Positions 4,937 to 10,215 of a stretch of 29,769 nucleotides of DNA are shown here, piece after piece. The position numbers and the translations under genes are program-made. Each line of letters opens with the position of its first letter. Position 1 is the first letter of the stretch. The notes beneath the pieces were generated by a model. The model made no database searches. It was given only the letters and a program-made list of their open reading frames with translations, and was not told the DNA's origin. This stretch comes from a virus: positions 1 through 29,769 of IMG/VR virus record IMGVR_UViG_3300033064_000737. One strand, written 5' to 3'.

Positions 4937-5522
4937 AGCAGATTGCATTACGGAAGAGGAGAGGAAGGAGAGGATAAGAAGGGCATTGAATGTGTCGAGC
5001 CTTGATAATACCTTTGACAATTTCAAAACTGTACCGGACGCTGATAAATCCCTGGCCGCTTTCAAGGAACTTCTCGAAGTGGAAACCGATAAAAGGATGC
5101 TTCTTTGTTACGGTGGTGTCGGCAACGGGAAGACCCATTTATGCGAGGCTACATCCATTGAACTTTACAAGAGGGGGATATTCTGCCGGGTGTTGAATAT
5201 GGCGGTAATTATGCGGTCTCTCAAGAACTCAATGGGGAAGGACTCCATAAACTCTTATGACGAACTATTAACACGGCTTTGCACCGTATCTCATTTGATA
5301 ATTGATGACGTTGGTATGGGCGGGAGTGGGAGTGAATGGGAATGGGGGCAGCTTGAGGAAATTATTGTGGCAAGACATAGAGAGGAATTATTTACTATTA
5401 TGACCACCAACAGGGACTTACCAGAATTACCAGAGCGGGTAGTTTCACGGTTTCAGGATAATCAACTGGGGATTGTGGTGTTAAATCAAGCTGAGGATTA
5501 CCGACCAAAGAAGGAGGGATGA
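4845..5522 (+). CDS. DnaC-like helicase loader ATPase
   Basis: A 225-residue AAA+ protein of the DnaC/IstB type. Walker A is GGVGNGKT at residues 90-97 and Walker B is LIIDDVG at 151-157. Sensor 1 is TTNRDL at 187-192, and the arginine-finger region RVVSRFQD is at 198-205. In the cell it would load the host replicative helicase at the phage origin with the O-like protein encoded just upstream. AAAGGAGGTC precedes the ATG, which lies inside the end of the initiator gene. Slightly shorter than E. coli DnaC, as usual in phages. Confidence 0.9.
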   Translation: MEKVEQFLGNLRRAHDNSRQEIATRIRMSIEADCITEEERKERIRRALNVSSLDNTFDNFKTVPDADKSLAAFKELLEVETDKRMLLCYGGVGNGKTHLCEATSIELYKRGIFCRVLNMAVIMRSLKNSMGKDSINSYDELLTRLCTVSHLIIDDVGMGGSGSEWEWGQLEEIIVARHREELFTIMTTNRDLPELPERVVSRFQDNQLGIVVLNQAEDYRPKKEG

Positions 5523-5561
5523 TGACCAATCAATCTGAGGACAAGAGGGCTTTGATAAGGG
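5522..5561 (+). repeat. 40-bp direct repeat C, copy 1
   Basis: A perfect 40-base match to 5943-5982, exactly covering the first 13 codons of two neighbouring genes. Confidence 0.95.
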
Positions 5562-5728: not shown

Positions 5729-5946
5729 TTGAATATTATTGCAAGGTGAATGAAGCACCAATTATTAGTAGGGAGATATTATCTTTAAGGCGTAGAGAGG
5801 ATGGCGTCTTTGAAATCTACGCTGATGGTGAACTGGTTGAGGAATACGAAGCCAATGCCGATACTTGGGGAGCTTTGCTACCGATTAAACTTTGGAGACA
5901 TTTTAATAATATCGTTGAGAAAAGGATAAAAGGGGGAAAGGAATGA
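5725..5946 (+). CDS. small hypothetical protein (73 aa)
   Basis: Lies between the two genes with duplicated starts and overlaps both with ATGA junctions. Beta-rich first half (MIEYYCKVNEAPIISREILS, GVFEIYADGELVEEY) and a helical end. No motif recognised. The continuous ATGA coupling suggests that 5522, 5725 and 5943 are translated as one unit. Confidence 0.65.
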   Translation: MIEYYCKVNEAPIISREILSLRRREDGVFEIYADGELVEEYEANADTWGALLPIKLWRHFNNIVEKRIKGGKE

Positions 5947-5982
5947 CCAATCAATCTGAGGACAAGAGGGCTTTGATAAGGG
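5943..5982 (+). repeat. 40-bp direct repeat C, copy 2
   Basis: Identical to 5522-5561. Both copies start at the ATG, which marks a coding-start duplication rather than random sequence. Confidence 0.95.
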
Positions 5983-8482: not shown

Positions 8483-8662
8483 ATGGAACTAACATTGGGC
8501 GAGAGAATAGATGCGGTCTATGGGCTAAGGGACATTCTGACAAAAGCGATAGAACTTGCCTCATCCCGGGGATTAACCGATGAAAATATTCAATGCGTCT
8601 GGTTATTTGTCTGCGAGCAGAAAGGCATATACCCGAAGATTGGGCAATTCTTAACGGCCTGA
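8483..8662 (+). CDS. small hypothetical protein (59 aa)
   Basis: AAAGGAG at 8468-8474 supports the ATG at 8483. An in-frame ATG at 8399 would add 28 residues but has no ribosome binding site at a usable distance. The product (MELTLGERIDAVYGLRDILT, then ASSRGLTDENIQCVWLFVCE) is helical and soluble. Not recognised. Its TGA stop lies inside the first copy of the linker repeat at 8658. Confidence 0.6.
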   Translation: MELTLGERIDAVYGLRDILTKAIELASSRGLTDENIQCVWLFVCEQKGIYPKIGQFLTA

Positions 8663-8673
8663 CTTCAGGGCTA
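8658..8673 (+). repeat. linker repeat D, copy 1
   Basis: CCTGACTTCAGGGCTA followed by TAAATAA, at the boundary between two small genes. The same linker recurs at 8860 and, slightly altered, at 9040, each time after one small gene. Confidence 0.8.
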
Positions 8674-8697
8674 TAAATAAACAGGAGGTAAAGGACA

Positions 8698-8856
8698 ATG
8701 AGCTATGTTTATATTGAAACAGAACATAATGCTAATGGGAGTCTTTATACAGTTGGCTTTTATTCACCAGACGGCCAATGGCATCCTGAATCAGACCACG
8801 ATAGCAGGGAATCAGCAGCAGCCAGAGTGCATTACCTGAATGGTAGTAATGGCTGA
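8698..8856 (+). CDS. small hypothetical protein (52 aa)
   Basis: ACAGGAGGTAA precedes the ATG. The 52-residue product (MSYVYIETEHNANGSLYTVG, then FYSPDGQWHPESDHDSRESA) looks like a three-stranded sheet closed by a short helix, a plan often seen in small phage proteins that describe 'position/attribute'-like tables but of unknown role. It lies between two copies of linker repeat D, as a one-gene unit. Confidence 0.65.
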   Translation: MSYVYIETEHNANGSLYTVGFYSPDGQWHPESDHDSRESAAARVHYLNGSNG

Positions 8857-8859
8857 TAG

Positions 8860-8875
8860 CCTGACTTCAGGGCTA
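8860..8875 (+). repeat. linker repeat D, copy 2
   Basis: Same 16 bases as 8658-8673, followed by GAGTAAATAA instead of TAAATAA. It separates the 52-residue gene from the zinc-ribbon gene at 8902. Confidence 0.8.
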
Positions 8876-8901
8876 GAGTAAATAAGAAAGGAGATAAGAG
8901 A

Positions 8902-9039
8902 ATGGCTAGACAAGGTTATTTAGAGGGAACTTGCTCAAACTGTAAGCGCAAGATGTTTCGTAAGGTATCTATTGACGAGAAAAACCCATCATTGCCAAGA
9001 TTGTGCCATCGTTGCTCAAAGAAAGACGAAACACCATAG
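8902..9039 (+). CDS. small zinc-ribbon protein (45 aa)
   Basis: AAAGGAGATAAG precedes the ATG. The 45-residue product carries CSNC at 11-14 and CHRC at 35-38 with basic residues between (KRKMFRKV), a single zinc ribbon. It stands between linker copy 2 and the hairpin form of the linker at 9042. Role unknown. Confidence 0.7.
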   Translation: MARQGYLEGTCSNCKRKMFRKVSIDEKNPSLPRLCHRCSKKDETP

Positions 9040-9041
9040 CT

Positions 9042-9086
9042 TCACTTCAGGGCTAGACTTATCCTTCCGGTCTAGCCCTGAGGTGA
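9042..9086 (+). terminator. 17-bp stem-loop built from linker repeat D
   Basis: The third linker copy (9042-9058) pairs with an inverted copy (9070-9086) in a 17-bp stem with one T-G wobble and an 11-base loop. No T run follows, so this is not a standard intrinsic terminator. It may be a processing site, a weak or Rho-assisted terminator, or a mobile-unit end. Confidence 0.6.
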
Positions 9087-9113
9087 GGTACAGCACCTTA
9101 ACAATAGAATAGC

Positions 9114-9140
9114 GTTTGACCGTTGAATAGGGGACGGGTA
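9114..9140 (+). repeat. 27-bp inverted repeat, left arm
   Basis: Pairs with 9384-9410: 15 consecutive perfect pairs on the inner side, then 12 positions with eight Watson-Crick pairs, three G-U-type pairs and one mismatch. It lies 18 bases before the start codon of the enclosed gene. Confidence 0.85.
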
Positions 9141-9158
9141 GGAAAGGAAGTATCAAAC

Positions 9159-9374
9159 ATGACTGCTACAATAATACACATGGGTTTTGATGTTCAAGGT
9201 TTTATCCGATTGCTAGAAGATATTCCCTACGAAAAGCGAGACCTCAAGTGGGCAGAGAGTCGCACACACTTTGAGGAGCTTAAAAAGCAAGGCATCATAA
9301 CGGTATCTACTTGTCCTAACCCCATAGAAAAATCGCCTGGTAGCTGGGTTTGCCCAGGGCACCCGAGAGAATAA
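9159..9374 (+). CDS. small hypothetical protein enclosed by inverted repeat (71 aa)
   Basis: AGGAAAGGAAG lies just before the ATG; a TTG further up lies inside the inverted repeat. The product starts MTATIIHMGFDVQGFIRLLE and ends with CPNPIEKSPGSWVCPGHPRE. That leaves two cysteines and a histidine near the end that could hold a metal. Middle part is charged and helical. I do not recognise it. Its message would begin and end in complementary arms, so expression may depend on that fold. Confidence 0.6.
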   Translation: MTATIIHMGFDVQGFIRLLEDIPYEKRDLKWAESRTHFEELKKQGIITVSTCPNPIEKSPGSWVCPGHPRE

Positions 9375-9383
9375 AATAAACAT

Positions 9384-9410
9384 TACCCGTCCCCTATTGA
9401 GCGGTTAAGC
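9384..9410 (+). repeat. 27-bp inverted repeat, right arm
   Basis: Partner of 9114-9140, starting ten bases after the stop codon of the enclosed gene. No target-site duplication is seen outside the arms. Confidence 0.85.
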
Positions 9411-9443
9411 ACGAGGACTCTATTAGATATAAGGGGGTATGAA

Positions 9444-9644
9444 ATGACAAGAGATGAAGCATACCAGGAATACGAGGAAGCACTAGCAAAGATAGACCAA
9501 TCTATATCAATACTGAACAAGGCAAGGGATAAGGCTAGAGCTACATTACGAGAGCGGTTGAAAGCTCTCCGTGAACAACACCACGAGGAATTGAAAGCCA
9601 TCCGTGTCCTTGACCAAAAGGCAAAGAGGAGTAAGAAATGTTAG
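9444..9644 (+). CDS. coiled-coil protein (66 aa)
   Basis: A 66-residue, almost wholly helical protein (MTRDEAYQEYEEALAKIDQS, then ARDKARATLRERLKALREQH) with heptad-like spacing of Leu, Ile and Ala, so probably a coiled coil. It ends in a basic Lys/Arg tail. AAGGGGGT precedes the ATG. The stop overlaps the next gene by seven bases. Possibly a structural or partner-binding helper; not recognised. Confidence 0.65.
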   Translation: MTRDEAYQEYEEALAKIDQSISILNKARDKARATLRERLKALREQHHEELKAIRVLDQKAKRSKKC

Positions 9645-9844
9645 ATGAAAGAATGATGCGATGCCCTTACTGCGACAAGATTTTCTGGATTACAGAAGAG
9701 GAGCAATATAACAATGAGACCTTTGAGTGCCCTCATTGCCACTTATCAAATGCCGGATGTATTGAGACCGATGACTATGGCGTCCTTATCGGAGTTAGCA
9801 TGTTAGACGAGCAACTTAAGGAAATCGAGGACTCTATTAGATAG
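9638..9844 (+). CDS. small zinc-ribbon protein (68 aa)
   Basis: CPYCDKIFW at residues 9-17 and CPHCHLSNAGC at 31-41, with an acidic linker (TEEEQYNNETFE) and a helical end. The Cys-x2-Cys pairs form a typical small zinc ribbon. AGAGGAGT before the ATG and the overlap with the coiled-coil gene suggest the two act or are made together. Confidence 0.75.
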   Translation: MLDERMMRCPYCDKIFWITEEEQYNNETFECPHCHLSNAGCIETDDYGVLIGVSMLDEQLKEIEDSIR

Positions 9845-9972: not shown

Positions 9973-10215
9973 AGGAGATAAGCGAGGGAATCCACGCCTA
10001 AGTGTTAGACTTAGACACAAAAAAAGATTGAGACTAAAAAGGGGGATATAGAGAATTTCAGGCACGAAGTGTAAGAACTTGACAGGGTGTGATATACTAT
10101 AATGAGCGATAGCTTATGAGAAGAGGCTCGATAGAGATGTCGGGCTTTTCCTAATGTACAGGCCGTCAGGGTTTTCATCGACCTACTTGGCGGCCTGTCT
10201 TGTTAGAGGTAATAA
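9973..10215 (+). promoter_or_regulatory. non-coding leader of the methyltransferase operon
   Basis: No gene of normal length fits here. It holds an extended -10-like TGATATACT (10090-10098), a second TATAAT (10098-10103), and TTGACA at 10079 that is too close to either -10 for normal pairing. It also contains a stem ACAGGCCG (10158-10165)/CGGCCTGT (10191-10198). Three overlapping mini-frames (10102, 10116, 10154) lead by stop/start overlaps into the TTG at 10216. A promoter and leader control are plausible, not proven. Confidence 0.45.

Follow-up and report, generated by a model that had tools for sequence, protein, structure and literature searches.

Long inverted repeats in phage DNA can be read either as the ends of mobile DNA or as the two strands of an RNA structure, and the locus described here raises the question of which of these applies and, if RNA is the relevant molecule, what kind of RNA device it encodes. 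The locus resides in a 29,769-base virus record (hereafter ‘the window’, meaning the whole stretch at its full length) that represents a tailed phage; the window proteins that were scanned include a terminase, a capsid protein, a DnaC-like loader, replication protein O and a DNA methyltransferase. Many of the scanned proteins had no family match.

A long-range stem encloses a small gene

An earlier note on this DNA had described pairing between positions 9114-9140 and 9384-9410 at 26 of 27 positions, with 15 perfect inner pairs, imperfect positions that are mostly G-U compatible, and a complete small gene of 71 codons (9159-9374) lying between the arms. Our recount agrees on every point, giving 23 Watson-Crick pairs, three G-U pairs and one G-G mismatch. 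What had been overlooked is a boxA element at 9092-9112, only one base outside the 5ʹ arm. The presence of boxA directly upstream makes the stem a recognisable module rather than a curiosity. The parts of the module, preceded by a neighbouring hairpin that may or may not belong to it, are as follows, all on the plus strand.

9042-9086 (+): 17-bp hairpin directly 5ʹ of boxA, belonging to an intergenic repeat (CTGACTTCAGGGCTA) found after the small genes that come before
9092-9112 (+): boxA, AGCACCTTAACAATAGAATAG, identical or near-identical to the Dehalococcoidia boxA found before 16S and 23S rRNA genes
9114-9140 (+): 5ʹ (leader) arm of the long-range stem; one further G-U pair extends the pairing to 9141
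9115-9130 (+): second, degenerate boxA copy, TTTGACCGTTGAATAG, within the 5ʹ arm; in host pre-16S rRNA and type I phage units (see below), boxA itself occupies this place in the stem
9141-9150 (+): Shine-Dalgarno sequence, GGAAAGGAAG, directly inside the stem and unpaired except for its first bases
9159-9374 (+): enclosed ORF of 71 amino acids (the cargo gene), without known relatives
9384-9410 (+): 3ʹ (trailer) arm, containing CTATTGAGCGGTTAAG, which matches the host 16S trailer motif CTATCCAGAGGTTAAG
9419-9424 (+): TCTATT, predicted by both the minimum free energy (MFE) and centroid folds to pair with AATAGA at 9103-9108 in the boxA tail, forming a weak outermost helix

The plus-strand RNA from 9100 to 9425 has a predicted folding energy of -96 kcal/mol (z = -3.3), which none of 100 shuffled sequences equalled, and the stem is present in both the MFE and the centroid fold. 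The stem scores 56.8. Across the same contigs, 4,000 randomly chosen positions gave 54.4 at best, and shuffled versions of the downstream sequence all scored far lower. A mobile element or REP-like end was considered for this feature and rejected: AATAGGGGACGGGTA occurs in 12 other viral contigs that lack the arms, and the feature is therefore not a dispersed repeat.

Codon usage of the enclosed ORF fits that of the phage in frame 0 only (+1.4, versus -24 and -32 for the other two frames). Its product has no relatives in viral contigs, INPHARED phages, Pfam or PHROGs. The protein is mostly polar, without a transmembrane-like stretch by eye, and on the same inspection does not resemble the short hydrophobic membrane peptides of hok/Sok-type (type I) toxin-antitoxin systems. 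A search of the window with Rfam yielded no match, and the cargo is a 71-codon ORF rather than rRNA. Among the phage units described below, likewise, no known RNA family was found; only rRNA and tRNA were matched, in host or flanking DNA.

The CTGACTTCAGGGCTA repeat occurs in the window at 8654-8675, 8856-8877, 9036-9057 and 9071-9088, after successive small genes. Its last copy is followed by an inverted copy, and together these form the 17-bp hairpin just 5ʹ of boxA. Another short sequence, GAGGACTCTATTAGATA, is located directly past the 3ʹ arm (9412-9429) and again at 9826-9843, at the end of the gene spanning 9638-9844.

The element preceding the stem resembles the boxA of host rRNA operons

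The left arm is part of an intergenic leader that recurs in other phages sharing the terminase (L016/L017, L018 and L037). This leader consists of AGCACCTTAACAATWGAATAG, a variable stretch and, except in L037, GGGCGGGTAGGAAAGGA with a start codon; known phages yielded only 17-nt chance matches to it. When one genome per species of bacteria and archaea was scanned, the 21-mer AGCACCTTAACAATWGAATAG was found at only six places, all in Chloroflexota MAGs, and two of these directly precede 23S rRNA. More boxA copies are located in Dehalococcoidia before 23S (L152) and before 16S rRNA (L155, L180, L181, L182 and L184). The window boxA differs from the commonest host form at one of 21 positions. The corresponding E. 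coli rrn element is TGCTCTTTAACAAT. Because of both its position and its likeness to the E. coli element, the AGCACCTTAACAATAGAATAG-type sequence is, on comparative grounds, the boxA of host rRNA operons. Since it precedes the rRNA genes of Dehalococcoidia, we infer that the host of the window phage is a member of this class. A class-wide count of boxA elements is uninformative, because boxA varies and many MAGs may lack their rRNA regions.

Seven of eight phage records carry one boxA each, and in several phages this boxA lies near a strand switch, that is, close to the start of an operon. A stem is undetectable at roughly half of the boxA sites, some of which precede the antisense strand of tRNA genes or long noncoding stretches. 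One locus (L140) has boxA and the 5ʹ arm motif, yet the 3ʹ arm is absent within 2.5 kb.

Two further settings of boxA were observed. In one, boxA faces a tRNA or tRNA-like gene on the opposite strand and lies only a few nucleotides from the 3ʹ end of that gene (L115, 10788-10886; the same arrangement is seen in the viral contigs L117, L118, L123, L125, L126, L131 and L137); such sites are possibly prophage junctions at tRNA genes. In the other, boxA or a variant lies upstream of a gene for a protein of ~158 amino acids that looks by eye like a sigma-factor relative (L097, L108, L150 and L154; L161-L163; L185). This gene occurs in Dehalococcoidia islands and in viral contigs, and in L097, L108, L150 and L154 it is surrounded by weaker complementary arms that are 626-699 nt apart.

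Stem-enclosed genes recur directly after boxA

In many viral contigs with a boxA, the element is immediately followed by a 5ʹ arm, with the matching 3ʹ arm ~80-830 nt further on. When every ORF of 40 or more codons in the gathered loci was evaluated without selection, 17 of the 35 ORFs just after boxA (start 20-110 nt after the element) were enclosed by a strong stem, versus 8 of 6,607 other ORFs (p = 1.8e-35). Counted as distinct leaders, at least 15 viral contigs carry a stem-enclosed ORF (the window, L136, L124, L111, L102, L130, L016/L017, L120, L116/L119/L134, L113/L139, L114, L129, L142, L098, L128 and L100). Start codons are located 10-36 nt past the 5ʹ arm, and stop codons mostly 7-18 nt ahead of the 3ʹ arm, with longer distances in L098 (23 nt) and in the second unit of L102 (46 nt). 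Units can also be arranged in tandem, with two in L102 and four in L172 (phage record G202).

The enclosed ORFs are mostly unrelated to each other, and only one of ten tested has a family in Pfam and PHROGs (the L114 ORF; DUF4241, phrog_5209). L124 and L114 share boxA and nearly identical arms around unrelated ORFs. Conversely, L102 and L017 encode homologous ORFs within arms that have diverged with pairing retained. This is the only cargo family with two distinct members, and arms are present in both; a search for further homologues returned only those same loci.

Some boxA-associated stems enclose no ORF at all. Examples on the minus strand are L037 (3318-3628), which encloses 267 nt, L095 (2470-2640), which encloses 81 nt (z = -4.85), and L122 (near 276). 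The enclosed RNAs of L037 and L095 look like structured noncoding RNAs.

The stems are maintained at the level of RNA

Nine arms could be placed in register (A1, 26 pairs), whereupon 91% of the cells were paired and 17 of the 26 pairs had changed on both sides, where cells represent sequences and not independent events. None of 500 shuffles reached any of five covariation measures, and sliding the partner by one to three columns reduced pairing to 35-47%. The two arms of the window pair at 26 of 27 positions, a helix longer than 17 bp, and covariation across the nine units backs this structure. Most of this signal stems from the inner arm and from diverged units, as the boxA part alone covaries weakly because boxA hardly varies. 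In L136, a 2-bp insertion is found in both arms at the same place.

The imperfect pairs carry strand information. Read in the sense strand, the wobbles comprise 63 G-U and 31 A-C combinations under a scoring scheme that treats the two alike (p = 0.0013; the units are few, and p-values are best taken as guides). Such an excess is expected if the sense-strand RNA is the folding molecule. The earlier note had favoured selection on RNA folding over a DNA transposon end, and this preference is supported by covarying stems, the G-U bias and the occurrence of the same structure around unrelated genes. These stems are RNA structures under selection at the RNA level.

The units follow the plan of the host pre-16S rRNA helix

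The combination of boxA with a long leader-trailer helix is known as a hallmark of rRNA operons. In two Dehalococcoides-like genomes (1.4-1.5 Mb; genus inferred from size and class), the 16S leader and trailer are GCACCTTAACAACTGGATAGCGGAAAGAAAAGT and GCTTTTCTTTCCGCTATCCAGAGGTTAAGGTGT, respectively, and in each genome the 5ʹ strand of this helix includes boxA. A Dehalococcoidales MAG (G003) has a 16S leader and trailer whose pairing spans 32 positions, interrupted by one internal loop of 2 nt; this helix is based on two ends only, of a 16S gene split between two assembly places. The two pieces lie on contig 1 at 670128-670424 and 1049193-1049667 (L183 and L182), and the split is probably an assembly or rearrangement artefact.

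A group of phage units that we call type I (L116, L142, L129, L138, L037, L120 and L113) has the same plan as this host helix. Their arms read CTTAAC-aac-TGAATAG on the 5ʹ side and CTATTcAG-n-GGTTAAG on the 3ʹ side, with the same small internal loop as in the host. Type I leaders agree with the host 16S leader of L155 at as many as 24 of 24 positions, and this full agreement is seen in L116, L129 and L120. The window and L136 constitute a variant type, in which a second, degenerate copy (TTTGACCGTTGAATAG in the window) comes after boxA and forms pairs with CTATTGAGCGGTTAAG of the 3ʹ arm. Compared with type I units, the unit in the window resembles the host helix less directly, as it is this diverged second boxA that is paired. 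RNase III is encoded in all six related host genomes, and NusB in five of the six. Taken together, these likenesses make it probable that the feature is a phage copy of the host pre-16S leader-trailer module in which a small protein gene replaces the rRNA.

Three other explanations of the units deserve consideration. The stem might serve mainly as a device for translation or message stability, by hok-like fold-back or by protection of the 3ʹ end, with boxA acting only to suppress termination within the operon. The location of start codons just 10-36 nt inside the 5ʹ arm and of a Shine-Dalgarno sequence adjoining the stem would suit such a role, and there is precedent in the repression of suhB by a boxA near its Shine-Dalgarno sequence, and of lambda N by nutL, via a loop to RNA polymerase (PMC5725501). 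However, the Shine-Dalgarno sequence of the window is unpaired except at its edge in the predicted fold, some units enclose RNA without an ORF (L037 and L095), and such a device alone leaves unexplained both the co-occurrence of boxA with the stem and the likeness to the rRNA helix. We therefore regard this explanation as unlikely. The analogy to hok proposed in the earlier note is weak, given that Rfam yields no match, that an antisense partner was looked for in vain and that the stem leaves the Shine-Dalgarno sequence outside; this comparison should be replaced by that with the pre-rRNA leader-trailer module.

A DNA-level function is considerably less plausible. Conserved arms could provide homology for the exchange of accessory genes, such that each unit is a gene-swapping cassette, and this is what the pair L124/L114 brings to mind, with its shared boxA, near-identical arms and unrelated ORFs, as does the variety of cargo among the window, L136, L116 and other units. 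Elsewhere the arms differ between phages yet stay complementary, and their wobbles are biased to the sense strand; complementarity is therefore maintained as RNA. The mobile cassette and invertible segment that had been entertained previously find no backing in the window, where neither inversion nor target duplication was found, and the cassette aspect survives only in L124/L114. The earlier observation that recombinases and target duplications are missing still stands, with none flanking the unit and no recombinase among the subset of window proteins scanned. Gene exchange at the arms may occur as a by-product. It is also very improbable that each unit is a lambda-type nut antitermination site, at which a phage protein reads boxA together with an RNA structure and the long stem takes the place of boxB. 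A single boxA in seven of eight phage records, several near a strand switch, is what such a site would look like, but neither the MFE nor the centroid fold of the window RNA places a local boxB-like hairpin between boxA and the gene. Moreover, the structure closes only past the gene, which is too late to nucleate a boxB-type complex, and one phage (L172) carries four stem-enclosed ORFs in tandem.

A possible route for phage messages through rRNA synthesis and processing

In E. coli, boxA is located upstream of the rRNA helix and not within it, and a transfer of the mechanism to Dehalococcoidia is therefore by analogy. For E. coli rRNA, it has been established or proposed that NusB-S10 binds boxA and helps to make RNA polymerase antiterminating, that boxA remains anchored to the polymerase while the rRNA loops out, and that the emerging trailer then pairs with the leader to form a helix that is cut by RNase III (PMC10250234). 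Of the cis-elements involved, a phage unit lacks only the rRNA itself and any recognisable boxB or boxC. By analogy, once the phage leader is transcribed, its boxA would be bound by NusB-S10 and the Nus complex would be recruited, which would make the RNA polymerase antiterminating in the rrn manner and keep the leader close to its RNA exit. The phage ORF would loop out, and the emerging trailer would anneal to the leader. The stem formed in this way, longer than 17 bp, would be an RNase III substrate, and therefore the cistron would probably be excised from the polycistronic transcript. The product would be a short mRNA that has a ribosome site of its own, left unpaired immediately within the stem.

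The two types of unit might differ in the fate of boxA. In type I units, closure of the stem would bury boxA, and the Nus complex could thereby be released. In the window, the second, degenerate boxA would be paired instead, leaving the first boxA mostly free. The enclosed gene might also be repressed temporarily while boxA is tethered, a form of control reported for suhB and for lambda N (PMC5725501). What the sequences show is the structure and its selection as RNA; Nus binding, antitermination, cleavage by RNase III, effects on translation and any benefit of the module are presumed. On balance, we lean towards the reading that Dehalococcoidia phages make certain messages as pseudo-pre-rRNA, combining an rRNA-type antiterminating polymerase with excision by an rRNA processing enzyme, and that some units carry noncoding RNAs in the same manner.

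Relation to known systems

The bacterial rRNA operon leader-trailer system (rrnTAC; PMC10250234) is the closest parallel, as phage units carry the host rrn boxA, a long helix and the trailer motif, and, in the Dehalococcoidia examined, host 16S and type I phage units alike have boxA within the 5ʹ helix strand. In contrast to rRNA operons, the phage units enclose ~80-830 nt that comprise a small protein gene or sometimes a noncoding RNA, they are located in phage operons, and boxA is duplicated in the window. Lambda nut sites (boxA, boxB, N and Nus factors) similarly place a boxA, usually one per record, in the untranslated leader of a phage operon, whereas the units described here have a host rrn-type boxA, no visible boxB-like hairpin and a long-range stem around the cistron. 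In boxA-regulated mRNAs such as E. coli suhB (PMC5725501), boxA likewise lies a few tens of nucleotides 5ʹ of the Shine-Dalgarno sequence, but a leader-trailer stem is not described there and control is exerted via Rho and translational repression. The hok/Sok fold-back mRNA also pairs the 5ʹ and 3ʹ ends of a small-gene message. Unlike the present units, hok/Sok has no boxA, and neither an antisense RNA, an overlapping reading frame nor a toxin-like peptide was found in the window.

In the full-text literature, whose coverage leaves out most subscription journals, no description was found of an mRNA inside rRNA-type leader-trailer helices. The parts of the module are known, and their use around phage protein genes is, provisionally and to our knowledge, new; we know of no earlier case of phage protein genes within a boxA and leader-trailer module. 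If the pseudo-pre-rRNA reading is true, then phages can route messages through the host line for rRNA synthesis and processing, and a polycistronic phage mRNA organised in this way represents an undescribed mode of expression. Many orphan phage genes from a poorly cultured phylum would become tied to one expression mechanism. The units also are natural minimal constructs, with loops of 200-800 nt compared with 1.5 kb of rRNA, and are suited to the open question of whether the tethering of boxA to polymerase drives leader-trailer pairing in rRNA.

Other features of the window

Two additional features of the window were recorded. A perfect 40-nt repeat (5522-5561 and 5943-5982) gives two adjacent genes the same N-terminus. 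The segment at 10105-10149, located 3ʹ of a promoter-like TTGACA-TATACT at ~10080, is conserved in L017 (4417-4461) and is a possible structured leader RNA ahead of the methyltransferase gene.
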